A stretch of DNA of 64,000 nt, from the NCBI GenBank assembly GCA_017643495.1, contig JAEPNK010000002.1:186001-250000 (forward strand), given 5' to 3'. The notes beneath the pieces were generated by a model. It was not told the origin of the DNA. It worked only from the letters and a program-made list of their open reading frames with translations, and made no database searches. A program made the position numbers and the translations under genes. This document shows, piece by piece, positions 32,945 through 47,520 of the stretch. How positions within the stretch are numbered: position 1 is the first letter of the stretch; each line of letters opens with the position of its first letter. The DNA comes from Rhizobiaceae bacterium (GTDB lineage: Bacteria > Pseudomonadota > Alphaproteobacteria > Rhizobiales > Rhizobiaceae).

Positions 32945-33862
32945 GTGGAAACAGCAAGTTTGGGCTCAATGCACACCCATCGGCTTTCAAGGGCATTCGT
33001 GTTTGGCGGAACCTATGGCAACCTGCAGGCAACCAGGGCGATGCTTGAGCAGGCGTATCATTTGGGGTTCAGCCCGCAGGAGATTATTTTCACAGGAGAC
33101 AGCGCTGCATATTGTGCAGACCCCGAAGCCACTGCCCGGTTGATCATCGATGCCGGAATCCCGGCAATCATGGGCAATTGTGAAGAAGCTCTGGCCAATG
33201 ACAGCGCGGATTGCGGATGCGGGTTTGAAGAGGGGTCAGCTTGCGACCTGCTCTCCGTGCAATGGTTCGGGTATTGCAGGGCCCACATTTCTGCTTACGT
33301 CAGGCAATGGATGGCCTCCCTGCCCCGCTCGCTCGTGGTGGAGATTGGAAAATTCCGCCTGCTTTGCACCCATGCCACGCCGGACAGTATCAACCGGTTC
33401 GTTTTCGCCTCTGATTTCGCAACCGGAAAGTTCAGTCCGCTCGACGGACCGTATGACGGCTATGTCACCGGCCATTCCGGCATCCCGTTCGCCACCGGCA
33501 CCAACGGGAAATGCTGGATCAACACGGGCGCAGCCGGAATGCCTGCCAATGACGGTACATCGCGCGTCTGGTACGGCATTATCGAACAACAGGAAGACGA
33601 GTTGGTAACGAGGCTCATGCCTTTGTCATATGACTATCCCGCGGCTATCAGCTCGATGGAGAAAAATGGCTTGCCAACCGGCTACGCGCAATGCCTGGCT
33701 GATGGCCTTTGGCCAAGCCATGACATTTTGCCAGAAGTTGAAAAGAATGCTGGCGGGCGGGCGCTGGAAGAAACGACATTCAGGTTTTGCCGTAAAACCG
33801 GACATGCACCGGCAGAACCGGCATCACCCCCTGATGTAAGCAGTTCTTCTGCAGCAGAATGA
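32945..33862 (+). CDS. Metallophosphoesterase-fold protein with altered metal motifs
   Basis: 305 residues from a GTG; an ATG at 32969 is an alternative. The layout follows YfcE/MJ0936-type phosphoesterases, but motif 1, normally DxHGN, reads GGTYGN, and GNHD reads GNCEE. GD (FTGDSAAYC), THATPD and GHSGIPF remain at the other positions. A cysteine-rich piece DCGCGFEEGSACD lies near residue 96. It belongs to a recognisable alphaproteobacterial subgroup, and whether it binds two metals is doubtful. It is divergent from the methyltransferase (60 bases), and its stop abuts the stop of the next convergent gene. Confidence 0.75.
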   Translation: METASLGSMHTHRLSRAFVFGGTYGNLQATRAMLEQAYHLGFSPQEIIFTGDSAAYCADPEATARLIIDAGIPAIMGNCEEALANDSADCGCGFEEGSACDLLSVQWFGYCRAHISAYVRQWMASLPRSLVVEIGKFRLLCTHATPDSINRFVFASDFATGKFSPLDGPYDGYVTGHSGIPFATGTNGKCWINTGAAGMPANDGTSRVWYGIIEQQEDELVTRLMPLSYDYPAAISSMEKNGLPTGYAQCLADGLWPSHDILPEVEKNAGGRALEETTFRFCRKTGHAPAEPASPPDVSSSSAAE

Positions 33863-34111
33863 TCAGTCCAGATCACCCGGATAAGGTTGCTCGTATTCCT
33901 GGCATCCGTCACAAATCCTGTTGACCTTGTGGCGCTTTTCCCAACCTTCAATATGATCCTGTGACACGGTTGTCCCGACAATCATCCGGTCAATGCCCTG
34001 ACCATTCGATGCTTCAGCCATTTCGTCTGCTGAACCGGGGTCACCTGCAGACTTGACTTGCCAGGCCACTGCCACACCCATTGCCAGGATCGAATACCCG
34101 ATAATCCGCAT
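33863..34111 (-). CDS. Small exported or membrane-anchored protein with CxxC
   Basis: 82 residues from the ATG at 34111, preceded by AGGGGGAG, the strongest ribosome site nearby. It has an N-terminal hydrophobic segment (IIGYSILAMGVAVAWQV) and then a polar acidic tail containing CDGC and ending QPYPGDLD. The cysteine pair could bind metal or heme-like ligands or form a disulfide; a single CxxC without following His argues against c-type heme. No family recognised. Confidence 0.6.
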   Translation of the reverse strand: MRIIGYSILAMGVAVAWQVKSAGDPGSADEMAEASNGQGIDRMIVGTTVSQDHIEGWEKRHKVNRICDGCQEYEQPYPGDLD

Positions 34112-34305
34112 GTTTACTCCCCCTAAATTCTGAACATTTTCAGTAACAATGCCCAAAAAAAATTAACCGGACTTTAAGATTGATCAAATTTTGGGGAAGC
34201 CTGCATTTGCCGCTCCCCATAAAACGGATTTGCCGGTTTTCCACCCCTCTGGAATGGTATTCATAAACATTCTGGAAACGCTTTTTCTGTATCAATTACC
34301 CGGTC

Positions 34306-36678
34306 ATGCCACGGGAAAACGCAGTGTCCAGTTTGTCAGCCCTAAGAACACGCTCATTGGAGCGCTATTCCGCCATCAAGACGGGTGTAGTGCAAAGACG
34401 GCGTGAACTGCATCATTACGAAGACCACACGGCCTTTTTCTTCAGCAAGGTCAGCGCAGCGTCGGCCGCGCTGATTACATTTTTCCTGACGCTTGAACCG
34501 GCCCTGCTGGCTGCCGCCATTGTTATGGGAGCGGTCCTTCTCCTTGATATATGGAACATCCGGGCACACAAGAAACTGGTTGACGGCCTGTCGCACAACT
34601 ACAGAAGATGGCAATTCGGATACAGTTCGCTTTCAACCATATTCATGTTTTCAACCGGCCTGTGGTGTTTCCTGTGCCTCTATCTGACCACAGATCCCTT
34701 CGTGCACCTGCTTTGCATATCCATCACAATGGGCAACCTTCTCAGCCTGATATGCAGAAACTTCACCAATGACAAGATCCTGACAATACAGGTTGCAGCG
34801 GTCGGCATTCCGGTAATGATCGGGATTTTCTCCTATGGAGATTTCCGCAGCATCATATTGAGCGCATTCTTTTTGCCGTTGTTCTCCAGTATTCGTGACA
34901 TGTCCGCGCGGTTGCGGAAATTCTTCAAGGATGTTGAAAGCCACTATATCGAGAAGGAAGAGTTTGGCATTCAGCTCAACGAGGCACTGGAAAGCATGTC
35001 CCACGGCCTCATCATGTTTGATGAAGACATGAAATTGAGGATTATCAACCAGACTGCACGCGACATTCTCAACATCGCCCCCGAGATCAACTGTTACAGC
35101 AAGGGACTGGAAGAGATTGCCCGCCTGGTGGACGCTCACAAACCTTCTTCCAACCGGGTCCGGATTCTTGAGCACACGCTTCTGAAACGCTTACGGCATC
35201 GCAGCCAGGACAAGGTTTTCAAGATTTCAGGTGACCTTTACATCGAGTTGTCGATCAAGCTGCGGGATGAAGGCGGCTGCGTTCTGGTCTTCGAGGATGT
35301 CAGCCAGCGTATCCAGTACGAGTCACGCATCAACGAACTGGCACGGTTTGACGAACTCACAGGCCTTTGCAACCGAAGCTACTTCATGCAGCAGGCAAAG
35401 CGTGTACTGAACAATACCGGTGACAACGAAACCGGTGCGGTACTCTTCTTTGATCTCGATGATTTCAAGCGCGTCAACGATACATTCGGACACGAGGCGG
35501 GAGATTTTATCCTCTCTTCTGTTGCCGAACGTCTAAAACAGCTTCTTCCCAATGGAGCAATTGGCGCCAGATACGGTGGAGACGAGTTCGTCGTAATTGT
35601 GAAAGGTGCTGACCTGCCTGGCGGCGTTGAGGACCTTGCAGAGAACATCGTCAGGGAAGTTGCCAGGGATCTGGTTTACAACAACCAGATCCTGCGCTTT
35701 GGTGCCAGCTTGGGTTTTGCACGCTTCCCGAAAGACGGAACTTCCGTCGAGCGCTTGCTGAAACTTGCAGACCTTGCACTTTACGAAGCCAAGTCGGCAG
35801 GCAAAAACAGCTATCGTAACTTCACACCGGAAATGGAAAACTCGTTGCAGGAAAGGCTGCAGCTTGAAAATGACCTCTCCCACGCGATCAAGAACAATCT
35901 GCTGGAACTTCACTTCCAGCCGATTGTGTGTGCCGATACCGGAAAGACCAGGGTTTTTGAATCTCTCACACGCTGGACAAGAAACGGACAACCGGTCAGC
36001 CCCGCACGGTTTATTCCCATAGCTGAAGATCTGGGCCTGATCACCGAAATCGGCAGTTGGACATTGCTGGAAGCGTGCCGCAATTGCGTGACCTGGCCGG
36101 AAGATGTCTCTGTCGCAGTGAACGTCTCCGCGGTTCAGTTCCAGGTTGGTTCGATTATTGCAGCCGTTAAAAAGGCACTTGATGAAAGCGGCCTCGAACC
36201 GTCCCGGCTTGAAATAGAAATCACCGAAACTGCGGTGCTGAATGACCTCTCCCATGCAACAGCTGTTCTTGAAGAACTGAGCAAGCTGGGCGTACGCATT
36301 TCGCTTGATGATTTCGGCACGGGTTATTCCAGCCTTTCCTATCTGCACAAACTGCCACTCAACAAGGTCAAGATAGACAAGTCCTTTGTTGATGACATTG
36401 AAACCAACAAGCGCTCCCGCACCCTGCTCAAGGGTATCACTGCGCTGGGCCGTGCGTTGGGCCTGAAGATCGTTGTGGAGGGCATAGAGACCCAGGACCA
36501 GTGCAACCTTCTGGCCGAGCTTTATGAAGTCGATTTCATGCAGGGCTACTATTTCGCCAAGGCTGTACCGGCAGAAGAAGCTGGTCGGTTCCTCAACAGG
36601 CCGGACCATGAGATCGACAAGGAAATCACACCGGACGAAGAAACGCTCAACCTTGCAACCCGGGAGATGGTCGCCTGA
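34306..36678 (+). CDS. Membrane GGDEF-EAL protein (cyclic-di-GMP turnover)
   Basis: 790 residues. Five or six membrane helices (about 45-200) precede a PAS-like segment (about 220-335), a GGDEF domain with intact GGDEF at 424-428, and an EAL domain. The EAL signature reads E-S-L (E552-S-L) and the loop DDFGTGYSSL is intact, as are EITET and VVEGIET. The inhibitory RxxD site before GGDEF is absent. Both activities are therefore possible. It is a single gene, convergent with the lyase gene 12 bases away. Confidence 0.93.
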   Translation: MPRENAVSSLSALRTRSLERYSAIKTGVVQRRRELHHYEDHTAFFFSKVSAASAALITFFLTLEPALLAAAIVMGAVLLLDIWNIRAHKKLVDGLSHNYRRWQFGYSSLSTIFMFSTGLWCFLCLYLTTDPFVHLLCISITMGNLLSLICRNFTNDKILTIQVAAVGIPVMIGIFSYGDFRSIILSAFFLPLFSSIRDMSARLRKFFKDVESHYIEKEEFGIQLNEALESMSHGLIMFDEDMKLRIINQTARDILNIAPEINCYSKGLEEIARLVDAHKPSSNRVRILEHTLLKRLRHRSQDKVFKISGDLYIELSIKLRDEGGCVLVFEDVSQRIQYESRINELARFDELTGLCNRSYFMQQAKRVLNNTGDNETGAVLFFDLDDFKRVNDTFGHEAGDFILSSVAERLKQLLPNGAIGARYGGDEFVVIVKGADLPGGVEDLAENIVREVARDLVYNNQILRFGASLGFARFPKDGTSVERLLKLADLALYEAKSAGKNSYRNFTPEMENSLQERLQLENDLSHAIKNNLLELHFQPIVCADTGKTRVFESLTRWTRNGQPVSPARFIPIAEDLGLITEIGSWTLLEACRNCVTWPEDVSVAVNVSAVQFQVGSIIAAVKKALDESGLEPSRLEIEITETAVLNDLSHATAVLEELSKLGVRISLDDFGTGYSSLSYLHKLPLNKVKIDKSFVDDIETNKRSRTLLKGITALGRALGLKIVVEGIETQDQCNLLAELYEVDFMQGYYFAKAVPAEEAGRFLNRPDHEIDKEITPDEETLNLATREMVA

Positions 36679-36690
36679 CCATACCTGCTG

Positions 36691-37620
36691 CTAGGCCAAA
36701 CCGGCCAGTCTCGCCTTCTCAACCAGCATTTCCGCCTGTCTGACTGAAGCATAGTCAACCATCCGGCCATTCAGCGTCACAGCCCCCTTCCCCGAGGCTT
36801 CCGCTTCTTTCATCGCCTTGAGGATGTTCAATGCATCATCAATCTGGTTGCTGTCTAGCCCCATGATTTCGTTGGCCATTTCAATCTGGGAAGGATGGAT
36901 CACCCACTTTCCCTCAAACCCGAGTGTGGCAGCCCGTTTCGCAGCCATCCGAAACGCCTCCGGATTGTTGAAGTCTGAGTATGGCCCGTCTACCGGTCGC
37001 AATCCGTTGGCACGCGCTGCCACAACAATCCGGGAGAGCACGTAGTGCCACATGTCTCCTTCATAATCAGCGCTCTGGCCACCGATATCCGTGACGCGCG
37101 CGTGTATGGAAGCAGCATAATCGCCTGGCCCGAAATGAAGGCTTTCGGTACGCCGGCTTGCCGCAGCGATTTCCTCGATGTTTTGCAGTCCCTTTGCAGA
37201 CTCGATCTGCAATTCCAGACCGGTTGTGCTTGTGATGCCCATCGCTGATTCAATTTGTTGCAGAAGTGTATCGATCATGAAGACCGTTGCGGCGTTCTCC
37301 ACCTTCGGAACCATGACCAGATCGACATGTTCCCCCGCTTTTTCCATGACATCGACAAGATCACGATACATGAATTGCGTGTCGGCGGCATTGATGCGCA
37401 CAGAAACCGTCTTTGCCGACCAGTCTTCGGCCAGAAGCACATCGGCGATGTTCTGTCGTGCCTTCGCCTTGTCAGCGGGCGCTACGGAATCCTCGATATC
37501 CAGCATCACGATATCAGCATCCGAAATCCGGGCTTTTTCGAGAAATCTCGGGTTGCTTCCCGGCACAGCCAACTGGCTCCTGTTGAGCCGGACAGGTCGT
37601 TCAGCTGTATTCGGTATCAT
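36691..37620 (-). CDS. HpcH/HpaI (CitE/malyl-CoA lyase-like) C-C lyase
   Basis: 309 residues of the TIM-barrel CitE/Mcl fold: RSQLAVPGSNPRFLEKA, VMLDIEDSVAPADK, MVPKVENA, and FGPGDYAASIHARV. The last segment is typical of malyl-CoA/beta-methylmalyl-CoA lyases rather than citrate lyase. These enzymes split CoA esters such as malyl-CoA into acetyl-CoA and glyoxylate. Its ATG overlaps the stop of the racemase-like gene by 4 bases, so the two are translationally coupled. The real substrate here is unknown. Confidence 0.85.
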   Translation of the reverse strand: MIPNTAERPVRLNRSQLAVPGSNPRFLEKARISDADIVMLDIEDSVAPADKAKARQNIADVLLAEDWSAKTVSVRINAADTQFMYRDLVDVMEKAGEHVDLVMVPKVENAATVFMIDTLLQQIESAMGITSTTGLELQIESAKGLQNIEEIAAASRRTESLHFGPGDYAASIHARVTDIGGQSADYEGDMWHYVLSRIVVAARANGLRPVDGPYSDFNNPEAFRMAAKRAATLGFEGKWVIHPSQIEMANEIMGLDSNQIDDALNILKAMKEAEASGKGAVTLNGRMVDYASVRQAEMLVEKARLAGLA

Positions 37621-38384
37621 GAAGCCAATCCTTTGGTAAAAAGACGTCCCAGTTCGGGCCTGTCACTCTGGTCCCCGGCAAGCCTCAGCGCATGCCAGGC
37701 CATCGCATGGTTGGAAGATGTCACTGGCACCCCCGTACTCTTCTCAATACCGGCAACAGCGTTCATCAGTCTGACATTCGTGCAGGAAACAAATACCATG
37801 TCGACGGAACTGGCCTTCAGAATTTCGCTGACACCTGTTTCAAGACTGGCCGCATCAATGCGGGCAACCACGGGATCACGCTCTTCCTCGAAAGAGGCAA
37901 ATATCGGAACCTCGAAACCGGCACTTTCGATAGACGAACGGACAATGTTGTTCACATCCTCGCGGTATGGCGTCAAAACGCCGATCCGCTTGGCACCAAA
38001 TGCCTTGAATGCGGAAAAGGCTGCGGCGGAAGGGGTTGTGCATTTCGCATCCGGCTGGACTTCCCGAATACGCTCGAATACCCGTTCATTGCCCAGAACC
38101 ATGGATGCCGAGGTGCAACCATAGGCAACCACATCAAGCCGTTCTCCGGGAAGTATGGTTGCCACCGTCTGCGATATTCTTGGTTCCATTGCCGCCAGTG
38201 TCTCTGGTGTGATTGCGGTTTCATTCGCAATGCGCGACGAAAACAGGGAGATTTCTTCCCCGGGAAAGACGGTACGGAATTCCTGTTCGACGGTATAATC
38301 CGTTGCCAGAACGACCAGACCTACCCGGGCTTTCGAACCAATCCCCCCATCAGTGGCAAAGGGCAGTTTCAGGTAATCGGTCAT
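37617..38384 (-). CDS. Asp/Glu racemase-superfamily protein, maleate isomerase / EutA-like
   Basis: 255 residues. Two candidate catalytic cysteines lie in YGCTSAS and SCTNVR, followed by SSNHAMAWHALRLAG, the pattern of maleate cis-trans isomerases, EutA and arylmalonate decarboxylases. The family shuffles protons at carbons next to carboxylates. It begins 2 bases after the RidA gene and overlaps the lyase gene by 4, so the three form one operon. Confidence 0.85.
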   Translation of the reverse strand: MTDYLKLPFATDGGIGSKARVGLVVLATDYTVEQEFRTVFPGEEISLFSSRIANETAITPETLAAMEPRISQTVATILPGERLDVVAYGCTSASMVLGNERVFERIREVQPDAKCTTPSAAAFSAFKAFGAKRIGVLTPYREDVNNIVRSSIESAGFEVPIFASFEEERDPVVARIDAASLETGVSEILKASSVDMVFVSCTNVRLMNAVAGIEKSTGVPVTSSNHAMAWHALRLAGDQSDRPELGRLFTKGLAS

Positions 38385-38386
38385 GC

Positions 38387-38731
38387 TCAGTCTACGGCTG
38401 CAATGACGCCGATTTCGACCAGCAGATCAGGCCTTGCGAGTTTCGATTCGACACAGGCACGGGCCGGAGCATTCCCTTCCGGAACCCAGGCATCCCAGAC
38501 CGCATTCATTTCCGCGAAATTGGCCATGTCGGTAATCCAGATGGTCGCTGACAGCACTTTCGTCTTGTCTGTCCCCGCTTCTGAAAGCAGTGCTTCTATC
38601 TTGCCGAGAATCGCCTTTGTCTGCTCGGTCACGCTGTCACCTTCCGCAACCTGTCCGGCAGTATAAACGGTGTTCCCGTGAACGACAGCCTGGCTCATCC
38701 GGGTTGCAGTCTTGATTCTCTTGATGCTCAT
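38387..38731 (-). CDS. RidA/YjgF-family enamine/imine deaminase
   Basis: 114 residues from the ATG at 38731, with AAGG upstream; a longer frame to 38800 has no good site. The conserved C-terminal segment reads RACVESKLARPDLLVEIGVIA. Most active RidA proteins carry Arg in this segment (R in ARACVE). They hydrolyse reactive enamines and imines produced by amino-acid enzymes, or serve in specific catabolic steps. It is the first gene of the minus-strand operon of the catabolic locus. Confidence 0.9.
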   Translation of the reverse strand: MSIKRIKTATRMSQAVVHGNTVYTAGQVAEGDSVTEQTKAILGKIEALLSEAGTDKTKVLSATIWITDMANFAEMNAVWDAWVPEGNAPARACVESKLARPDLLVEIGVIAAVD

Positions 38732-39050
38732 TACACGCCTTTCAAATGCGGTTGTCGGATAATATTCGCGACAATAGGCAGACCGCCATTCACTTGGCAA
38801 CCACCCTGTTCGACATCACTTTTACAGCCCGCATTATTGCCTGAGAAGAAAATCATTATTGCCTTATCGGAAACCGGCAAGCGGTTTTTGCGGGCCGAAA
38901 CAACCGTCTCACCCCGATTTGGCGATTTTAATCAAGGGACTATTTGGTGCTGGATGCTTGCCGCACAACGGGTTTGGTGATTTAAAGTTCATCTGCATCT
39001 TACGGTGCGGAACTAAAAAGCATGTGTATTCATGCAGTGGAGGAGAAGAA
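38732..39050. promoter_or_regulatory. Divergent promoter region of the catabolic locus
   Basis: 319 bases separate the RidA operon from the TRAP operon. Both must start here. The last 60 bases before the receptor gene end in a strong GGAGGAG ribosome site. I find no clear operator palindrome, and no regulator gene is nearby. Confidence 0.5.
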
Positions 39051-40154
39051 ATGACTGACAAACTTAATCGTAGAAAGTTTCTGAAAGGAAGCGCTGTCGC
39101 ATCGACTGTTGCAGCAGGCAGCCTGGCAGCTCCAGCAGTTGCCCGCGCCGAACCTACCGTCCTTAAAGTTCAGGCTGCCTGGGGTGGTGGTATCTTCCTA
39201 GAAAATGCCAAATCCTATGTCGAGCGTGTTCACGCAATGGCCGGCAAGGATTTGAAAATCGACCTTCTGGCAGTGGACTCGGTTGTTAAGACCGGCCAGA
39301 TGCAAAACGCGGTACACAAGGGACTGCTTGATGGCTGTCATTACGTACCGGCCTACTGGTATTCCAAGTCGAAAACAGCATCGCTCTTCGGTACAGGCCC
39401 CTGCCTTGGCTGGTCATCCAACGAAGTGCTTGGCTGGGTGCATTATGGCGGCGGACAGGAACTGTTTGACGAACTGATGGAAACCCTGGGCCTGAATATC
39501 GTGTCGTTCTTCAACTCGCCAATGCCGGCCCAGCCGCTTGGATGGTTCAAGGAAGAAATCACGGATGCTTCACAGATGGACGGCCTGAAGTACCGGACCG
39601 TTGGTCTGGCCGCCGACGTTCTGCTCGAAATGGGCATGTCCGTGGTGCAGCTGCCAGGCGGTGAAATCCAGCCTGCCATGAAGTCCGGCCTGATTGATGC
39701 AGCCGAGTTCAACAACCCGACTTCTGACCGTGATTTCGGCATGCAGGATGTTTCCAAACATTACCATCTGGCATCATTCCACCAGTCACAGGAGTTCTTC
39801 GAAGTGTCCTTCAACAAGGACAAGTTCAACTCCCTCCCGGCTGAACACCAGGCTATCCTGAAACATGCTTCGGAAGCTGAAAGTGCCAACTTCTACTGGC
39901 ACAATACCAAGCGCTACGCAGACGACCTTCAGAAGCTGAAGGATGAAAACGGTGTAAACGTTTACCGCACACCGGACTCTGTGATGGCTGCCCAGCTTGA
40001 AGCCTGGGATATTGTGGTTGACCGGATTTCCGGTGAAGATCCGTTCTTCGCGAAAGTCATCGAGTCTCAGCGCGCCTATGCCGAGAACGTGATGAACTAT
40101 CTCAACCTGAACCAGCCGGACTACAAGCTTGCTTACGAGCACTACTTTGGTTGA
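39051..40154 (+). CDS. TRAP transporter substrate-binding protein, TakP-like
   Basis: 367 residues from the ATG at 39051 after GGAGGAG. A Tat signal (RRKFLKG, then an Ala-rich core, cleavage near ARA-E) is used, so it is exported folded. The binding-protein body has YRTVGLAADVL, whose Arg usually grips the ligand carboxylate, then QLPGGEIQPAMKSGLIDAAEFNNP. This subgroup binds 2-oxo or related carboxylates in known members. The two permeases follow after a GC-rich hairpin. Confidence 0.93.
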   Translation: MTDKLNRRKFLKGSAVASTVAAGSLAAPAVARAEPTVLKVQAAWGGGIFLENAKSYVERVHAMAGKDLKIDLLAVDSVVKTGQMQNAVHKGLLDGCHYVPAYWYSKSKTASLFGTGPCLGWSSNEVLGWVHYGGGQELFDELMETLGLNIVSFFNSPMPAQPLGWFKEEITDASQMDGLKYRTVGLAADVLLEMGMSVVQLPGGEIQPAMKSGLIDAAEFNNPTSDRDFGMQDVSKHYHLASFHQSQEFFEVSFNKDKFNSLPAEHQAILKHASEAESANFYWHNTKRYADDLQKLKDENGVNVYRTPDSVMAAQLEAWDIVVDRISGEDPFFAKVIESQRAYAENVMNYLNLNQPDYKLAYEHYFG

Positions 40155-40178
40155 TCAGGTCTGATAAGGACCGCAAGC

Positions 40179-40206
40179 CCCGGGGCGGCCCCAAATCCGC
40201 CCCGGG
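40179..40206 (+). other. GC-rich stem-loop after the TRAP receptor gene
   Basis: CCCGGGGCGG and CCGCCCCGGG form a perfect 10-bp stem around CCCCAAAT, 25 bases after the receptor stop. No T-tract follows. It probably protects the receptor mRNA or partly attenuates the downstream genes. Confidence 0.75.
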
Positions 40207-40266
40207 CACCAAAACAAGACTTCCAGCCCCGCCTGAACGTACCGGCATTGCCGGGGAGAAACACGC

Positions 40267-40881
40267 ATGGAAAGAATTATCTATTCGATTGAAGGCCTGA
40301 ATCTGTGGATCGGCCGGGCTTTTGGCTGGTGCATACTCATTCTTACACTCGCTGTCGCCTACGAGGTGTTTGTCCGCTACGTTCTCAACGCACCGACCGT
40401 CTGGTCTCTCGACATGCAGATCCAGATGTATGGCGCCCTGTTCCTGATGACGGGTCCGTATGCCCTGGCGCAGGGAGCACATGTGCGCGGCGATTTCCTG
40501 TACCGGCTTTATCCGGTAAAATGGCAGGCAACTTCCGATTTCATCCTGTATGTCATCTTTTTCGTGCCCGGAATGTTCGCACTTGTTTACGCCGGATATA
40601 CGGCTGCTTCGGAAAGCTGGCGCTTTCAGGAGGTCAGCCTCAACAGCCCCGCCGGCATACAAATCTACTACCTCAAGTCACTTATTCCGGTAGTCGGCTT
40701 CCTCATGCTTCTGCAGGGCTTTTCAGAAATGCTTCGCTGCTGGAAGGCAATGCGCACCGGCGTGTGGATGCCCCGTCTCAACGATGTGAAGGAAACCGAG
40801 GATCTGCTGGCTGATACAGATCCCGATCTTCTGCTTCACAAGAACGAGAAAATCGGCGAACCCGGCCCCGCCCAACCCTGA
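40267..40881 (+). CDS. TRAP transporter small permease (DctQ-like)
   Basis: 204 residues with four membrane helices, the DctQ layout, and the conserved RYVLNAPTVWSLDMQIQMYG region near residue 38. The C-terminal 40 residues are polar. It pairs with the large permease 47 bases downstream to move the ligand inward with sodium. Confidence 0.93.
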   Translation: MERIIYSIEGLNLWIGRAFGWCILILTLAVAYEVFVRYVLNAPTVWSLDMQIQMYGALFLMTGPYALAQGAHVRGDFLYRLYPVKWQATSDFILYVIFFVPGMFALVYAGYTAASESWRFQEVSLNSPAGIQIYYLKSLIPVVGFLMLLQGFSEMLRCWKAMRTGVWMPRLNDVKETEDLLADTDPDLLLHKNEKIGEPGPAQP

Positions 40882-40928
40882 TGCCTGAAGCAATACCGGC
40901 TGTAACCGCAACATTCGAGTAAACGAGC

Positions 40929-42287
40929 ATGGAAAATCAAGAAGTCGCAATTGTAATGCTGGTAAGCTTCATCTTTCTGGTGTTGCTTGGCTTTCCCGTC
41001 GCCTTCACGCTGATGGCAATGGGGATCGGCTTTGGCTTTTATTATTATACGACCCAGGGCGACACGATACTCCAGTTCGCCGATGTGCTGAACAACCGCA
41101 TTTTTGACCTGTTTGCCCAGCGCACATTCGAGGTCATGGACAACGCCACCCTGGTCGCCATCCCGCTTTTCCTGTTCATGGGCTACATTGTCGAACGGGC
41201 AAACATTATCGACAAGCTGTTCTTCTCGATTTATCTCTCGGCCCGGAAACTGCCCGGTTCCATGGCAATTGCCGCCCTCGTGACCTGTACCGTTTTCTCA
41301 ACCGCTTCGGGCATTGTTGGCGCTGTCGTAACCCTGATGGGCCTCCTTGCCTTCCCGGCAATGGCGAATGCCAACTACAACCGGGAATTTGCATCCGGTG
41401 TGATCTGTGCCGGCGGTACGCTCGGCATCCTCATACCACCATCCATCATGCTCATCGTTTATTCGGTGATTGCGGAACTGTCCCCCTTGCGCCTTTATGC
41501 TGCTGCGGTATTTCCGGGCCTTCTCCTGGCCGGTTCCTACATGGTCTACGTTGTGGTGAGGGCCTGGCTCAACCCGCAGCTTGCTCCTCCCCCGCGTGAT
41601 GAAGATGTTCCCCCGCCCGCAGAAATCTTCAAGGACCTGCTTGTATCGTTCTTCCCGCTGACCATTCTCATCATGCTTGTTCTCGGTTCCATTCTCGGCG
41701 GCCTTGCCACGCCCGCAGAAGCGGCTGCCATGGGCGCTGCAGGTGGCATAGTGCTGGCTGCCGCCTACCGGTCGCTGACATGGCAAAAGCTGAAGGAAAG
41801 CGTGTTCCTGACAGCCAAGGCAACCTCAATGGTCTGCTGGCTGTTCATCGGCTCGTTCATATTCTCGGCAGTATTTTCCCTTTTAGGCGGTGAGCATCTC
41901 ATCAAGGACTGGGTGCTCAGCCTTGATCTGGAACCGTGGATGTTCCTCATCATCGTCCAGTTGATCATCTTCTTCCTCGGCTGGCCGCTGGAATGGTCGG
42001 AAATCCTCATCATTTTCGTACCGATCTTCCTGCCCATGCTTTCGGCATTCGATGTGAACCCGTATTTCTTTGCGATGCTGGTTGCTCTCAACCTGCAGAC
42101 GTCATTCCTTACCCCGCCCATGGCCATGTCTGCCTATTATCTGAAAGGCGTTCTCAAGTCGCAGATTGAGCTCGTGGAGATTTTCAAGGGCATCCTGCCT
42201 TATCTTGCCATCGTGATCGGCTGCATGGTCATCATGTACCAGTTCCCCGGCCTTGCCCTTTGGCTGCCGGACTACCTCTTCCCGTAA
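40929..42287 (+). CDS. TRAP transporter large permease (DctM-like)
   Basis: 452 residues, about 12 membrane helices. DctM motifs include PLFLFMGYIVERA, CAGGTLGILIPPSIMLIVY and QTSFLTPPMAMSAYYLKG. It is the ion-coupled channel of the system. The amidase gene follows after 15 bases. Confidence 0.96.
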   Translation: MENQEVAIVMLVSFIFLVLLGFPVAFTLMAMGIGFGFYYYTTQGDTILQFADVLNNRIFDLFAQRTFEVMDNATLVAIPLFLFMGYIVERANIIDKLFFSIYLSARKLPGSMAIAALVTCTVFSTASGIVGAVVTLMGLLAFPAMANANYNREFASGVICAGGTLGILIPPSIMLIVYSVIAELSPLRLYAAAVFPGLLLAGSYMVYVVVRAWLNPQLAPPPRDEDVPPPAEIFKDLLVSFFPLTILIMLVLGSILGGLATPAEAAAMGAAGGIVLAAAYRSLTWQKLKESVFLTAKATSMVCWLFIGSFIFSAVFSLLGGEHLIKDWVLSLDLEPWMFLIIVQLIIFFLGWPLEWSEILIIFVPIFLPMLSAFDVNPYFFAMLVALNLQTSFLTPPMAMSAYYLKGVLKSQIELVEIFKGILPYLAIVIGCMVIMYQFPGLALWLPDYLFP

Positions 42288-42302
42288 GCCGCAAGTATTG
42301 AA

Positions 42303-43655
42303 ATGTCAGATATTCCACCAAACGGACTCACAGCAGTCGAAGCTTCGGAAAAAATACGCGAAGGCTGGCTCACATCTGTCGAACTGACGGAAGCGTGCCT
42401 GAAGCGCATTGAGGAAACCGATCCGCAAATCGGTGCCTGGGCCCATATCGATCGTGAAAAGGCACTGGCACGCGCCCGGCAATGCGATGATATGCGCACG
42501 CATGGCAGACCGTTAGGCGCATTGCACGGCATTCCGGTTGGCCTGAAAGACATAATCGACACCAGGGATTTCCCGACAGAACGCGGCACACCTGTCTTCA
42601 AGGACCGGCTGCCCGAAACCGATGCCCGTATTGTAGAACGGCTGCATGAGGAAGGGGCTGTCATTCTCGGCAAGACCGTCACCACGGAACTGGCTTTTCT
42701 GCATCCTGCCGGAACCCGCAATCCCCACAATCCGGAACACAGCCCCGGAGGGTCGTCGAGCGGTTCTGCTGCTGCAATTGCCGCCTTTCACGTGCCGCTT
42801 GCAATCGGCACCCAGACAAACGGATCAGTTATAAGACCCGCTGCCTATTGTGGCATTACCGGCTTCAAGCCAACACGCGGCGTCATTCCCCGTACAGGCA
42901 TCCTGCAAACCTCGAAATCACTCGACCAGGTCGGTGTCTTTGCCCGTTCCATCGAGGATGCAGCACTGCTGACAGATGCCATTTCCGGTTACGATCCCCG
43001 TGACGCGGGCTCCTATGCTCGCGCAAGGCCTGCAATGCTCGCTGGCGCACGTCAGGAAGTCCCGGTCGAACCGTCTTTTGCATGGTTCGACCTGCCCTTT
43101 GCCGACAGGCTTTCAAGTGATGCTGCCGCCGGCCTGAACGAGGTCGTGCAAGCCATGGGGGGTACCGTTACCCGCCTGCAGGCTCCGGATACATTCGAAG
43201 GGCTGCTGGAAACCCAGCGGATCATTCACGAATATGAAATCTGCCAGCATCTCGAGACAGTATTTGCAGATCACTGGGAGCAGATCAGCACGTCGCTTCA
43301 GCCGGTTGTTGAACGCGGCCGCGAAATCGGACGGGACGAATATGAACACGCCCTGGGGGTCATGGCCCAGCTGGAAAGTTTTGCCGAAGAATTCTTTCAC
43401 GACTACGATGCGATCATCACACCGTCCTGCACCGGCGAAGCACCGCTTGCAAGTGAGGGAACCGGTGATCCGGTGTTCTGCACCCTGTGGACGCTTGCAG
43501 GATTGCCCTGCCTGAACCTGCCACTCCTGGTAGGCGAAAACGGCCTGCCCATTGGTGTTCAACTGGTGGGTGCCTGTGAGAAGGACGACCGGCTGCTGAG
43601 AACAGCGAACTGGCTTGTTTCCGAACTTTCCGGCGACAACGACAAGGAGGAATAA
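42303..43655 (+). CDS. Amidase-signature-family hydrolase
   Basis: 450 residues. The Ser-cisSer-Lys triad is visible as K82 (VGLKD), S151 (PGGSSSGSAAA) and S175 (GTQTNGSVIRPA), with spacings as in malonamidase-type enzymes. It hydrolyses carboxamides to acid plus ammonia. Members look alike whatever their substrate, so the specificity is open. It sits between the TRAP permease (15 bases) and the small membrane-protein gene (2 bases). Confidence 0.93.
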   Translation: MSDIPPNGLTAVEASEKIREGWLTSVELTEACLKRIEETDPQIGAWAHIDREKALARARQCDDMRTHGRPLGALHGIPVGLKDIIDTRDFPTERGTPVFKDRLPETDARIVERLHEEGAVILGKTVTTELAFLHPAGTRNPHNPEHSPGGSSSGSAAAIAAFHVPLAIGTQTNGSVIRPAAYCGITGFKPTRGVIPRTGILQTSKSLDQVGVFARSIEDAALLTDAISGYDPRDAGSYARARPAMLAGARQEVPVEPSFAWFDLPFADRLSSDAAAGLNEVVQAMGGTVTRLQAPDTFEGLLETQRIIHEYEICQHLETVFADHWEQISTSLQPVVERGREIGRDEYEHALGVMAQLESFAEEFFHDYDAIITPSCTGEAPLASEGTGDPVFCTLWTLAGLPCLNLPLLVGENGLPIGVQLVGACEKDDRLLRTANWLVSELSGDNDKEE

Positions 43656-43657
43656 CC

Positions 43658-44113
43658 ATGCAGACCGCACCGTTGAATTCCATATCGGCATTTCTGGGAA
43701 CAGCAATACTGACAATTTTCGTTGTCGCCCTGGCAGAAAGCATATCGGCAGGTTTTGCCGGCTTCTGGGGAGGCCTGCCTTTCTGGCTGATCATCCTTTT
43801 CATCATTTATCTGGCCGCATACAATTTTCTGGAAGAATGCATCGGCCTTCCGAAAGCCCTTGCCTTCTTCCTGCAAATGCTCGGCATTGTATATGCAGGT
43901 GCTACCCTTGCTTTCGGTTGCTGGCAGGCTTCCAGATTTGTCACAAAATTCGGAACTTCCAGCTTCAGTCTCCCGTTCTCGGACACAGAACACATGCTTG
44001 CCAACGGATGGTTGCAGGGCTTCTGGATTTTCATTGGTATCTGCATCATCTTCACCGCTGCCTATTGGGGCATGAAGACCTATCGCGAATACAAAAACCC
44101 AACCACCACCTGA
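43658..44113 (+). CDS. Four-helix membrane protein of unknown function
   Basis: 151 residues with four membrane segments (about 12-33, 40-58, 65-88 and 118-140), arranged as a small integral protein. The start lies 2 bases after the amidase stop with AAGGAGG inside the amidase end, and the dehydrogenase follows after 10 bases. I recognise no family. Its place inside the operon suggests a role in the same pathway, perhaps in transport. Confidence 0.7.
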   Translation: MQTAPLNSISAFLGTAILTIFVVALAESISAGFAGFWGGLPFWLIILFIIYLAAYNFLEECIGLPKALAFFLQMLGIVYAGATLAFGCWQASRFVTKFGTSSFSLPFSDTEHMLANGWLQGFWIFIGICIIFTAAYWGMKTYREYKNPTTT

Positions 44114-44123
44114 TCGAGGTATT

Positions 44124-45083
44124 ATGTCGAAACCGGTTCTCTGGATCACCCGTCGCCTTTCCGACCGCACCCTGGAACGTGCGCAACAGGATTACGACTG
44201 CATTATCAATCACGAAGATGGCGAACATTCTGCCGCAGAAATCATTGAAATGAGTGCCAAGGTGGATGCCATCCTTCCCTGCCATTCGGAGGTTTTCAGG
44301 GGCGAGACCGTGGACCGGCTGGATGATCGCGTAAAAATCATTGCCAACCACTCTGTCGGAACCGACCATTGCGACATTCCTGCACTCAATGCCCGCGGCA
44401 TTACCGTAACCAACACACCGGACGTGCTGTCTGATGCAACTGCGGAAATTGCCTTTCTGTTGATGCTTGGCGCGGCCAGACGGGCTGTTGAAGGCGACAC
44501 CCTGGTGCGACAGGGCAAATGGGATTTCTGGTCTCCTGCCTTCATGGTCGGCAAGCAGGTGTCCGGCGCACGAATTGGCATTATCGGCATGGGTCGTGTC
44601 GGCCAGGTAATGGCTGATCGCGCCCGCGGTTTTGACATGGAAGTTCATTATCACAACCGCTCACGCCTTCCTGCCGACAAGGAAAAAGGCGCAACCTATC
44701 ACGACACTGTCGAAAGCCTCTTGGGTGTTGCGGACTTCCTTTCCCTCCATTGCCCTGCAACCGAGGATACCAAAGGCATGATGAATGCGGAGCGGTTTGC
44801 CTTGATGCCGGATGGAGCCGTGTTTGTGAATACCGCAAGGGGAGCACTGGTTGATGAGGATGCCCTGCTCTCGGCACTTGATAGTGGCAAACTGTCCGCG
44901 GCCGGTCTAGACTGCTTCGTCAAGGAACCTGGCGGAAATCCTGCATTTGCAGCCCATGACAATGTCTTCATGCTGCCCCATATAGGTAGTGCAACAGTTG
45001 CAACGCGTGATGCCATGGGCTTTCGTGCGCTTGACAATCTGGATGCATTCTTCTCAGGAAAGACACCAAAAGACAAGTTGTAA
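44124..45083 (+). CDS. D-2-hydroxyacid dehydrogenase (glyoxylate/hydroxypyruvate reductase-like)
   Basis: 319 residues. The NAD(P)-binding motif GIIGMGRVGQVMADRA is followed by HNRSR; the Arg after the second strand favours NADPH. Catalytic Arg lies in NTARGALVDE, Glu in KEPGGNP and His in PHIGSAT. It reduces 2-oxoacids or oxidises D-2-hydroxyacids. If the malyl-CoA-lyase-like enzyme of this locus releases glyoxylate, this could reduce it, which is inference. phrB starts 2 bases after its stop. Confidence 0.93.
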   Translation: MSKPVLWITRRLSDRTLERAQQDYDCIINHEDGEHSAAEIIEMSAKVDAILPCHSEVFRGETVDRLDDRVKIIANHSVGTDHCDIPALNARGITVTNTPDVLSDATAEIAFLLMLGAARRAVEGDTLVRQGKWDFWSPAFMVGKQVSGARIGIIGMGRVGQVMADRARGFDMEVHYHNRSRLPADKEKGATYHDTVESLLGVADFLSLHCPATEDTKGMMNAERFALMPDGAVFVNTARGALVDEDALLSALDSGKLSAAGLDCFVKEPGGNPAFAAHDNVFMLPHIGSATVATRDAMGFRALDNLDAFFSGKTPKDKL

Positions 45084-45085
45084 CA

Positions 45086-46498
45086 ATGACTTCCATCATG
45101 TGGTTCAGACAGGATTTGAGACTTTCCGACAATCCTGCGCTTCTGCACGCCTGCAGCCACGGCAAGATAATACCTCTCTTCGTTCTTGATACTTCAGACC
45201 GAAAGCTGGGCGGTGCCTCCAAATGGTGGCTGCATCACAGTCTCAAATCACTTGAAGAGGATTTTGGAGGGCTTGTTGTTCGACAGGGAGATCCTCTCAG
45301 TATCATAAGCTCGATGATTGCTGATACCGGTGCCGAAGGCGTTTACTGGAACCGGGGCTATGAGCCCCACATTGTCCGGCGTGATACCGAGATCAAATCT
45401 GTTCTGGGCGAAGATGGACATGATGTGAAGAGTTTCCCGGGAAGTGTTGTGCGTGAACCGTGGGAAGTGGAAACCGGTTCCGGCGATCCCTACAAGGTTT
45501 ACACTCCCTTCTGGAAAGCAGTACTTTCAAAAGGCATCCCCGGGCCTGCCGGAAACGCAAAGCCCGAACTGGCTGACCTGTCGGGATTGGGCGAGAAAAT
45601 CGACGACCTGAAGCTGCTTCCCGAAAAGCCGGATTGGGCAGAAGGTTGGCAAGACTTGTGGTCCCCCGGCGAAAAAGGGGCCATGCAGCAACTGGAACAG
45701 TTTCTGGAGAACGGGCTTGAGGGTTATGGCGAATTACGGAATCGCCCGGACCTGCCCAATGTTTCACGCCTTTCCCCGCACCTGCATTTTGGTGAAATTT
45801 CTCCCAGACAGGTATGTGAAATTGCCTATCGCAAGGCCGGAGACCAGGCCAAATATTCCGGCGATGTCAAAAAATTTGTAGCGGAGATCGGCTGGCGGGA
45901 TTTCGCCAACAACCTGTTGTTCCATTTCCCGGAAATTCCCGAGAAGAACTGGAAACCGGCCTTCGATGCTTTTCCCTGGCGCGAGAATGAAGAAGACTTG
46001 CAGGCCTGGCGGAAGGGGCAGACCGGCTATCCGATGATTGATGCAGGGATGCGTGAACTCTGGCAAACCGGCTACATGCACAACAGGGTGCGCATGCTTG
46101 TTGCAAGCTTTCTCGTCAAACACCTGCGCATTCACTGGAAACATGGCGAGGAATGGTTCTGGGATACGCTTTGTGATGCGGACATGGCAAACAACACGAC
46201 AAGCTGGCAATGGGTAACGGGTTCAGGCGCGGACGCTGCACCCTATTTCCGCATATTCAATCCGATAAGCCAGGGTCCCAAATTCGACCCTGCTGGCGAT
46301 TATGTTCGAAAATGGTGTCCCGAGCTTGCTGAACTCGACACGAAATACATTCATGCCCCCTTTGATGCACCTGACGAAGCTTTGGAAAAGGCAGGGGTTG
46401 AGCTTGGCAAAACCTATCCCCATCCCCTGGTAGACCATGCAGAAGCGCGCGAAGCCGCCCTCAAGGGTTACGAGGACGTCAAGGATGCGGGAAACTGA
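45086..46498 (+). CDS. phrB: Deoxyribodipyrimidine photolyase, class I
   Basis: 470 residues. The N-terminal antenna domain begins IMWFRQDLRLSDNPAL. The FAD domain has RPDLPNVSRLSPHLHFGEISPRQV, the Trp-rich WRDFANNLLFHFPEIP, TGYPMIDAGMRELWQTGYMHNR and NTTSWQWVTGSGADAAPYFRIFNP. It repairs cyclobutane pyrimidine dimers with blue light. Only 2 bases separate it from the dehydrogenase, an unexpected operon partner. Confidence 0.95.
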   Translation: MTSIMWFRQDLRLSDNPALLHACSHGKIIPLFVLDTSDRKLGGASKWWLHHSLKSLEEDFGGLVVRQGDPLSIISSMIADTGAEGVYWNRGYEPHIVRRDTEIKSVLGEDGHDVKSFPGSVVREPWEVETGSGDPYKVYTPFWKAVLSKGIPGPAGNAKPELADLSGLGEKIDDLKLLPEKPDWAEGWQDLWSPGEKGAMQQLEQFLENGLEGYGELRNRPDLPNVSRLSPHLHFGEISPRQVCEIAYRKAGDQAKYSGDVKKFVAEIGWRDFANNLLFHFPEIPEKNWKPAFDAFPWRENEEDLQAWRKGQTGYPMIDAGMRELWQTGYMHNRVRMLVASFLVKHLRIHWKHGEEWFWDTLCDADMANNTTSWQWVTGSGADAAPYFRIFNPISQGPKFDPAGDYVRKWCPELAELDTKYIHAPFDAPDEALEKAGVELGKTYPHPLVDHAEAREAALKGYEDVKDAGN

Positions 46499-46591
46499 GA
46501 CAGGGGTGTGCCGGGTAATATTCGCTGCCTTGGAAGTTTCGCCTTGATTGTTCCCCCCTGCTCCGCTAGCCAGACCTTGTCCATACCGCAG

Positions 46592-46676
46592 GCGACCGTG
46601 GTGGAATTGGTATACACAGCAGACTTAAAATCTGCCGACTTCGGTCATACGGGTTCAAGTCCCGTCGGTCGCACCA
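46592..46676 (+). tRNA. tRNA-Leu (anticodon TAA)
   Basis: 85 bases including the encoded CCA. The acceptor GCGACCG pairs with CGGTCGC, with A as discriminator. The anticodon arm GCAGA-CTTAAAA-TCTGC shows TAA, reading TTA/TTG. A class II variable arm (CGACTTCGGTCAT region) and the T arm ACGGG-TTCAAGT-CCCGT complete the cloverleaf. Confidence 0.97.
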
Positions 46677-46713
46677 TTTCATGTTTGGCTGAAAGGGGTT
46701 AGGATTATTTTCG

Positions 46714-47520
46714 TTGACCGAACAATCAAGTCCCAACCTGTCAGACATGGCCAGAAACCCAATGAACAAAACTCCTGATATTGTAACCGCCGGCATGCTG
46801 GCGATTGGCGACGAACTTCTTTCAGGACGTACGCGCGACAAGAATATCGGGCATTTGGCAAGCGCCCTCACCCTTCAGGGAATTGACCTTCGTGAAGTTC
46901 GTATTGTTGCGGACGAGGAAGATGACATCGTGGCTGCCGTCAATGCCCTGCGCGAACGGTATGACCTGGTGTTCACCTCCGGTGGCATAGGCCCCACCCA
47001 CGACGACATCACGGCTGATGCAATTGCGAAGGCTTTTGGCGTCAAGATCGACCATGATCCGCGCGCAATGAAAATCCTTGGTGAGCATTACGAGGAGCGG
47101 AAAATGGAATTCACCCCCGCCCGCAAGCGCATGGCAAGGATACCTGATGGCGCCAGTCTGATCGATAACCCTGTTTCAAAGGCCCCCGGTTTTGTCATTG
47201 GCAATGTCCACGTCATGGCAGGTGTCCCGTCTGTGTTTCAGGCAATGCTTGAAAACGTTGCCAAAACACTGCCCAGCGGTCAGGCGATGCTGTCGCGGGC
47301 GGTGGAGTGCGGTTTTGGTGAAGGCACGATTGGCGAGCCGCTGGGAAAGATACAGGCAAACCATCCTCTTACCTCCATCGGTTCCTATCCCAAATTTGAT
47401 GGCAGGAACTTTTCCACACAGATTGTTGTTCGCGGCCGTGAGGAAACGGCAATAGAAGCGGCCGCAGAGGCGGTCAAAATCATGCTGGATGAACTGAAGG
47501 AAAAATCCGGAACTGCCTGA
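46714..47520 (+). CDS. CinA N-terminal / molybdopterin-binding-domain protein
   Basis: 268 residues from a TTG with AGGA ten bases upstream; ATGs at 46747 and 46762 would give shorter forms that still contain the whole domain. The MoCF-like fold shows AIGDELLSGRTRDKNIGHLA and FTSGGIGPTHDDITADA. It lacks the C-terminal CinA deamidase domain, as short members in alphaproteobacteria do. Family members hydrolyse ADP-ribose-type compounds or act in competence; the role here is unclear. Confidence 0.88.
   Translation: MTEQSSPNLSDMARNPMNKTPDIVTAGMLAIGDELLSGRTRDKNIGHLASALTLQGIDLREVRIVADEEDDIVAAVNALRERYDLVFTSGGIGPTHDDITADAIAKAFGVKIDHDPRAMKILGEHYEERKMEFTPARKRMARIPDGASLIDNPVSKAPGFVIGNVHVMAGVPSVFQAMLENVAKTLPSGQAMLSRAVECGFGEGTIGEPLGKIQANHPLTSIGSYPKFDGRNFSTQIVVRGREETAIEAAAEAVKIMLDELKEKSGTA

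Follow-up and report, generated by a model that had tools for sequence, protein, structure and literature searches.

In the stretch of 64,000 nucleotides analysed here (the window), which corresponds to positions 186,001 to 250,000 of contig JAEPNK010000002.1 of a Rhizobiaceae bacterium, nine open frames occupy positions 36691-45083 and form two divergent runs, three genes on the minus strand to the left and six on the plus strand to the right (Table 1). The host genome comprises 3.74 Mb, and the locus lies on its contig C11. The right-hand run (module A) encodes a tripartite ATP-independent periplasmic (TRAP) transporter, formed by the receptor DctP and the permeases DctQ and DctM, together with an amidase, a small membrane protein and a 2-hydroxyacid dehydrogenase. 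The left-hand run contains the genes of a RidA-family deaminase and an Asp/Glu-racemase-fold enzyme (module B), and that of a lyase resembling malyl-coenzyme A (CoA) lyases (module C). An earlier note on this DNA had described these genes as two divergent, tightly packed operons and had proposed that they act in a single pathway. All the frames were recovered at the positions that it gave, and its family names were borne out by Pfam and NCBIfam. The nine-gene pathway is not supported by the comparison of genomes reported here; one half of it has proved to be an interesting conserved cassette, and the earlier proposal is to this extent partly supported. The locus is not a product of chance, since the right-hand run recurs in other families, the left-hand run being kept only in part.

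The tight packing holds for five of the seven junctions, at which the genes overlap or lie no more than 15 bp apart. In the left-hand run the lyase and racemase genes overlap by 4 bp, and 2 bp separate racemase and RidA; in the right-hand run the gaps are 15 bp between DctM and amidase, 2 bp between amidase and membrane protein, and 10 bp between membrane protein and dehydrogenase. It does not extend to the DctP-DctQ (112 bp) and DctQ-DctM (47 bp) junctions. The promoters of both runs are presumed to lie in the divergent intergenic region, because a promoter scan of 36400-45300 found 4 sites, with 4.7 expected. The statement that the locus has no regulator stands for the nine genes themselves, which is the extent of the check.

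Table 1. Genes and other features of the locus and its right-hand flank (positions in the window).
Feature	Position	Strand	Family or basis
Malyl-CoA-lyase-like HpcH/HpaI lyase, 309 aa, module C	36691-37620	-	PF03328
Asp/Glu-racemase-fold enzyme, 255 aa, module B	37617-38384	-	PF17645 and PF01177, above cut-off
RidA-family deaminase, 114 aa, module B	38387-38731	-	PF01042
Divergent intergenic region between RidA and TRAP receptor genes, 319 bp, presumed promoters of both runs	38732-39050		
TRAP receptor DctP, TakP-like, 367 aa, Tat-type leader by eye, module A	39051-40154	+	PF03480
TRAP small permease DctQ, module A	40267-40881	+	PF04290
TRAP large permease DctM, module A	40929-42287	+	PF06808; TIGR00786 above cut-off
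Amidase-signature hydrolase, 450 aa, module A	42303-43655	+	PF01425
Membrane protein, 151 aa, module A	43658-44113	+	Alignments, hydropathy
D-2-hydroxyacid dehydrogenase, glyoxylate/hydroxypyruvate-reductase-like, 319 aa, module A	44124-45083	+	PF02826 and PF00389
Photolyase, 2 bp 3' of the dehydrogenase gene	45086-46498		
tRNA downstream of the photolyase gene	46592-46673		Rfam RF00005

The cassette order DctPQM-amidase-small membrane protein-2-hydroxyacid dehydrogenase was followed in a sample of 55 stretches, the window excluded. A membrane-protein search of order genomes gave stretches L109-L127, and a receptor search gave 28 of 81 relatives (E ≤1e-60) and 39 of 385 class genomes (E ≤1e-100), the window's own genome included; the receptor contexts examined were those of 16 of the 27 other relatives, 20 of the 38 other class genomes (the best-ranked matches and some further down) and 3 of 22 plasmid records. 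Nine of the 55 stretches are without receptor and two end too early, which leaves 44 uncut receptor-bearing stretches. In these, the same run contains the amidase in 38 cases, the dehydrogenase in 19 and the membrane protein in 20, this last count being inflated by the stretches picked by the membrane protein itself. Outside the genus, among the uncut stretches chosen by receptor alone, the amidase is present in 23 of 28 (class genomes 18/19, relatives 4/6, plasmids 1/3). Module A is therefore a real, conserved cassette of several alphaproteobacterial families, and the view that the TakP-like receptor belongs with an amidase and a 2-hydroxyacid dehydrogenase is supported. In most cassettes the run contains no other neighbour that is constant. 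The lyase was found in none of the 55 stretches, and the racemase, like RidA at 60% identity or more, only in three, all from congeners (L233-L235; RidA query 38387-38728, without the initiator Met); distant RidA homologues occur in L235 (27%) and L282 (32%). In the open-licence literature, no paper was found that combines TRAP transporter, amidase, hydroxyacid dehydrogenase and operon.

Module B has other company. Its sample comprised the best 80 of 120 relatives' stretches plus those of two congeners, G303 and G305 (n=82; 83 with the window); neighbours were counted up to 4 kb away, some stretches stopping near the gene. Within this distance, 19 stretches contain RidA and a D-amino acid dehydrogenase (whose query is above the NCBIfam cut-off of NF001933), 9 RidA only, 7 this dehydrogenase only, 2 RidA and DctP (L010 and L014, both congeners), and 45 none of these, which amounts to 26/82 for the D-amino acid dehydrogenase and 30/82 for RidA; the lyase appears in 0/82. 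G303 and G305 show an intact RidA-dehydrogenase-racemase order with short gaps. At the window locus the D-amino acid dehydrogenase gene is absent, the rest of the genome not having been searched for it, and since only 2 bp part RidA and racemase there, the gene has been lost or has moved. Thus, module B looks like the remainder of a catabolic trio of racemase, D-amino acid dehydrogenase and RidA. A comparable arrangement is dadAXY of Pseudomonas aeruginosa, where alanine is broken down by the successive action of a racemase, DadA and a Rid protein (PMC9714295). The likeness consists in the presence of a racemase, a flavin adenine dinucleotide-dependent D-amino acid dehydrogenase and a Rid protein in one locus, as in the relatives of module B. 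However, DadX depends on pyridoxal phosphate, whereas the enzyme of module B has the two-Cys Asp/Glu-racemase fold, and the window copy is without the dehydrogenase gene.

The two-cysteine fold pointed out in the earlier note is confirmed by C90 and C201, invariant in 83/83 sequences. These two active-site Cys are also the feature of maleate isomerases, for which they are not diagnostic because racemases share them; an amino-acid racemase role is suggested by the gene company. In RidA, R91, which we take to be the position of the catalytic Arg, is conserved. Arylmalonate decarboxylase was ruled out as an identity of the racemase-fold enzyme: the mark of that enzyme is a Gly74 that replaces the first active-site Cys (PMC4996985), and Cys90 stands at that position in 83/83 sequences. 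A role in ectoine degradation was likewise rejected. The best NCBIfam model is EutA (TIGR02990), with 224 bits against a cut-off of 318, and the ectoine cluster of the genome, which has an EutA-like gene of its own, is found on a different contig; that gene (309 bits, also below 318) adjoins eutB, eutC, eutD and eutE, all above their cut-offs. This cluster (L300, C12:80000-98000) also contains a TRAP system and a regulator-like frame. No match to the racemase patterns was found in viral contigs.

The lyase of module C has malyl-CoA lyases as its closest solved chains (PDB 5ugr, 5e-91, and 4l9y, 3e-84), and differs from them in being without an adjoining malate-CoA ligase. Lyase matches are present in 75 of 81 relatives, and 17 of the best loci, 10 of them from congeners, were examined. 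Racemase, RidA, receptor and amidase were found in 0/17 of these loci; malate-CoA ligase genes lie beside the lyase in 8/17, two of these among the 10 congener loci. The window contains no malate-CoA ligase, and the best match in the genome reaches 454 bits against a cut-off of 604, which agrees with the earlier remark on the lack of a CoA ligase as far as malate-CoA ligase, the sole ligase type looked for, is concerned. This single match is 45% identical to the ligase of G303, a subunit of which passes the malate-CoA ligase cut-off, and is presumably a succinyl-CoA ligase. Two further proposals for the lyase were discarded. The ethylmalonyl-CoA pathway is opposed by the absence of a crotonyl-CoA carboxylase/reductase above cut-off in the genome, and the loss of a loop is not a mark of the window lyase, 4 of the 17 relatives being also without it. 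A search for isocitrate lyase gave matches above the Pfam cut-off, yet partial ones.

In G303 the genes follow a window-like order and orientation: GGDEF/EAL (+, by eye), lyase (-), racemase (-), dehydrogenase (-) and RidA (-), with about 18 kb, ligase genes included, between lyase and racemase. Taking into account that the same order is found there with this interval, a deletion probably joined lyase to racemase; the simplest account is that the loss of the intervening genes placed module C beside module B. The polarity of this change is inferred, and an insertion in G303 may be the alternative. The interval (contig C19, L223-L224) contains, besides the malate-CoA ligase genes, frames that resemble by eye glutamate-synthase-like (N-methylglutamate synthase) subunits, which suggests a methylotrophy island that the lineage of the window lacks.

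To our knowledge, few TRAP receptors have a known ligand. The window receptor belongs to the DctP family (PF03480, 87 bits against a cut-off of 23.4) and matches the TakP chain 2hzk at 3e-35. TakPQM is a TRAP system for 2-oxoacids of Rhodobacter sphaeroides, and the accessible portion of its structural description (PMC1839085) reports that pyruvate is held by Arg177 and Tyr100, that a cation is held by Gln156, Glu214, the Trp215 carbonyl and Glu240, and that a hydrophobic tail pocket includes Pro243. The alignment, gap-free around the site, pairs these residues with R182, Y102, Q161, E219, F220, Q245 and E248 (for Arg177, Tyr100, Gln156, Glu214, Trp215, Glu240 and Pro243, respectively). Four of the five TakP side-chain contacts are thus kept, namely the Tyr, Gln, Arg and Glu that contact carboxylate and cation, and the module A receptor differs from TakPQM in Gln245 for Glu240, in Glu248 for Pro243 and in the amidase that usually follows. 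Because the second cation-binding carboxylate, Glu240, is replaced by Gln245, the receptor is called TakP-like and not TakP. Q161, R182, E219, Q245 and E248 are found in 45/45 sequences, window included, and Y102 in 44/45, one having a missing N-terminus; F220 is replaced by Y in two of the 45. In the solved chains aligned, the Glu240 position is occupied by Glu in five of five, of which 4yzz and 4yic look like one protein. The head-group logic has been kept, one cation ligand has become neutral and the tail pocket has gained a carboxylate, and these features may point to a 2-oxo- or 2-hydroxyacid with a polar, perhaps amide, tail as the ligand.

Among 44 amidase sequences, at least 95% retain K82, S151 and S175, which we take to be the Lys-cisSer-Ser triad. 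The closest solved relative of the window amidase is malonamidase E2 (2e-66; PDB 1ock and others), with which it shares the amidase-signature fold, an identical HSPGGSSSGSAAA stretch and aligned Lys/Ser/Ser positions. It differs from this enzyme in its location in a TRAP operon, and malonamate hydrolysis is only a candidate activity; among the 25 matches listed, no NCBIfam model reaches its cut-off. In the open-licence literature, the one paper that mentions both malonamidase and TRAP is, judged by its title and abstract, on another subject. In the dehydrogenase, R239, E268 and H286 are conserved in at least 95% of 24 sequences. These are presumably the Arg/Glu/His catalytic-type residues of D-2-hydroxyacid dehydrogenases. 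Its best NCBIfam model is glyoxylate reductase (PRK13243), at 274.7 bits, below the equivalog cut-off of 455.

The membrane protein has no Pfam or NCBIfam match at E 0.001. Alignments show a core of about 65 aa with the motif SIxxGFAGFxGGLPF, and 24 of 30 frames are 64-92 aa long, six, the window's included, measuring 127-151 aa. It was detected in 17 of 297 order genomes, the own one included, and in 7 of 385 class genomes, which are the window's, all five others with a receptor of at least 75% identity, and G459, where no receptor is present at E 1e-100; it was detected in none of the 33 class genomes with a 47-59% receptor. The membrane protein marks, in this way, a sub-group of module A. 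In L293, a plasmid of Qingshengfaniella alkalisoli, the frame next after receptor, permease and amidase encodes a hypothetical protein of 52 aa (WP_168201411.1) and occupies the membrane protein's position.

Glycolate/lactate-type oxidase genes lie near 6 of the 55 cassette stretches and near 1 of 101 controls (Fisher p 0.008; the controls, some of which overlap, are 80 racemase stretches and 21 from lyase loci or congeners), which argues for 2-hydroxyacid chemistry. In L278 and L279, both 1.2-Mb single-contig genomes, a one-strand order is observed of a flavin mononucleotide-dependent 2-hydroxyacid dehydrogenase, an aminotransferase, GlcD, GlcE, GlcF, a dehydrogenase, DctPQM and the amidase, L278 having an extra small GFA-like frame, named by eye. 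We assume from their size that these two genomes are SAR11-like. The gene names are backed by family searches of L279, in which the NCBIfam cut-off was passed by GlcF and missed by the dehydrogenase and by the GlcD-, GlcE- and LldD-like proteins. Of the other linked stretches, L119 has GlcDEF directly upstream of the cassette, L280 a distant GlcD homologue and two LldD-like matches, L242 an LldD-like gene, and L240 a distant GlcD homologue 6 kb off. In the window's genome, GlcDEF-like genes are located on a different contig from the cassette. The available part of PMC9038784, on glycolate genes, names no TRAP system for glycolate.

These neighbours raise the explanation that module A is a transporter of glycolate, lactate or pyruvate, with the amidase engaged in an unrelated side reaction. 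It would be favoured by the GlcDEF and LldD-like neighbours in the two SAR11-like stretches and by GlcDEF in L119, and also by the binding of keto acids by TakP, as given in the accessible portion of PMC1839085, and the name of ketoacid-binding protein given to a solved relative, 7ug8. However, the amidase is the most constant non-transport partner (38/44), and the cation and tail-pocket residues are unlike those of the five solved chains aligned, and we hold this explanation to be rather doubtful.

It has been considered rather probable instead that the locus consists of three side-by-side modules of separate history, of which module A would handle an amide-bearing 2-oxo- or 2-hydroxyacid. 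The ligand would probably be a small hydroxy- or keto-acid carrying an amide: the four kept TakP contacts argue for the 2-oxo/2-hydroxy head group, and the intact amidase triad, malonamidase E2 as nearest solved relative and the polar tail pocket (E248) argue for the amide. The TakP-like TRAP system would import a short 2-oxo- or 2-hydroxycarboxylate bearing an amide or other C-N group, and a cytoplasmic amidase would then free ammonia from the imported amide. The 2-hydroxyacid dehydrogenase would convert the substrate or the product between its 2-oxo and 2-hydroxy forms, and the small membrane protein may be an accessory of the module. Uptake followed by deamidation, as had been suggested before, would be the natural reading of the TRAP/amidase half.

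Several observations weigh against this reading. Amidase-free receptors (L240, L241, L288 and L292) carry the same altered site residues, so the alteration does not set apart the copies that have an amidase neighbour. One family accounts for three of the six stretches with oxidase genes, and it also includes L281, without the link, and the association therefore represents about four lineages. The deletion model draws on one congener, G303. Moreover, modules A and B are associated at the level of genomes. Among 384 other class genomes, the receptor is present in 38 (E ≤1e-100), the racemase in 34 (E ≤1e-55) and both in 12, from 7 families, versus 3.4 expected (hypergeometric p 2e-5). In the 81 relatives, a receptor of at least 69% was found in 12, a racemase of at least 48% in 14 and both in 9 (by eye), three of them outside the genus (G006, G018 and G020) with the genes on different contigs. 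Four genomes of the genus (the window's, G297, G299 and G302) have receptor and racemase next to each other in divergent orientation, an arrangement which would allow co-regulation. Elsewhere in the genus, of which several genomes are incomplete, G303 and G305 have both genes, apart; G301 and G307 have the receptor but no racemase above 33%; and G304 and G306 have the racemase without receptor. Taking into account this co-occurrence and the adjacency in the genus, a functional tie between A and B is possible.

The integrated nine-gene pathway would proceed through uptake of an amide dicarboxylate, deamidation, isomerisation, CoA-ester cleavage and reduction. Its attraction lies in the tight divergent packing, the adjacency of A and B in four genomes of the genus and the co-occurrence of receptor and racemase. 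The gene sets examined speak otherwise: racemase stretches have the lyase in 0/82 and the receptor within 4 kb in 2/82, none of the 17 lyase loci has a gene of the other modules that was looked for, cassette stretches contain the lyase in 0/55 and the racemase in 3/55, and no malate-CoA ligase above cut-off exists in the genome. This pathway is thus very improbable, and neither the lyase nor RidA and the racemase have been upheld as steps of it. The co-occurrence across genomes by which the earlier note would have judged the proposal fails for the linkage of the modules and holds for receptor and racemase at genome level.

That same co-occurrence, with the adjacency, would also fit a joint action of A and B on asparagine-type nitrogen, in which 2-oxosuccinamate would be formed by racemase, D-amino acid dehydrogenase and RidA, the amidase would hydrolyse 2-oxo- or 2-hydroxysuccinamate, the 2-hydroxyacid dehydrogenase would reduce the 2-oxo group and the TRAP system would scavenge the same compounds, the lyase being a bystander. 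2-Oxosuccinamate is a 2-oxoacid with an amide tail, matching the altered pocket, and a precedent exists in mammals, where the accessible part of PMC5485471 describes lactate dehydrogenase and omega-amidase chemistry on compounds of the 2-oxo-/2-hydroxysuccinamate type. On the other hand, in each of the 12 class genomes with both genes these lie either on separate contigs or with at least 350 kb between them, contig breaks being able to mask linkage in some, and the trio's dehydrogenase gene is, as said above, absent from the window locus; we regard this joint route as quite unlikely.

Returning to the separate histories of the three modules, movement of module A from lineage to lineage is probable. 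A tree built from the receptor, large permease and amidase sequences, whose support values were left uninspected, groups the window copy with those of three congeners (G297, G302 and G307) and of G148, from another family, and sets the copies of the congeners G303 and G305 apart from it. In G304 and G306 the RidA-racemase pair adjoins the photolyase gene, with no cassette between. Transfer and repeated loss of module A both fit the tree and this arrangement. The photolyase gene had been left out of the gene set described before; in G297 it lies likewise close 3' of the cassette dehydrogenase (3 bp, frames of L014). An Rfam scan of 33000-47000 found no RNA family besides the one tRNA.

Two cassette copies have other neighbours. 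In L237 (G020 C2; receptor 69%), the cassette is followed by a frame resembling by eye a type II haloacid dehalogenase, and frames resembling, also by eye, 4-oxalomesaconate-pathway genes lie some kilobases away. In L339 (G459 C88, 6627-11219), dehydrogenase, membrane protein and the C-terminal half of the amidase are directly 3' of nitrile hydratase alpha, beta and accessory genes. A link to nitrile hydratase was rejected, since the amidase there is without its N-terminal half and, among the loci examined, only L338, from the same place, shares nitrile hydratase; the arrangement was treated as a probably broken and rejoined copy.

The case illustrates how genes packed closely in one genome can give the impression of a pathway, which then falls apart when relatives are compared. 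It is possible, as a tentative proposal, that module A represents an undescribed scavenging route for amide-bearing 2-oxo- or 2-hydroxyacids, present both in Rhizobiales and in SAR11-like bacteria of the ocean and accompanied in one sub-group by a small membrane protein of a new, TRAP-associated kind, and that its substrate is an unrecognised component of dissolved organic nitrogen; candidates would be 2-oxosuccinamate, 2-hydroxysuccinamate, ureidoglycolate and oxamate. The fixed, altered binding site and the near-constant enzyme partner mean that a short screen of ligands could find the substrate of the receptor. If its ligand is indeed a hydroxy- or keto-acid with an amide, and the small genomes are SAR11 as we infer, this compound would be a source of nitrogen and carbon for very abundant ocean bacteria.

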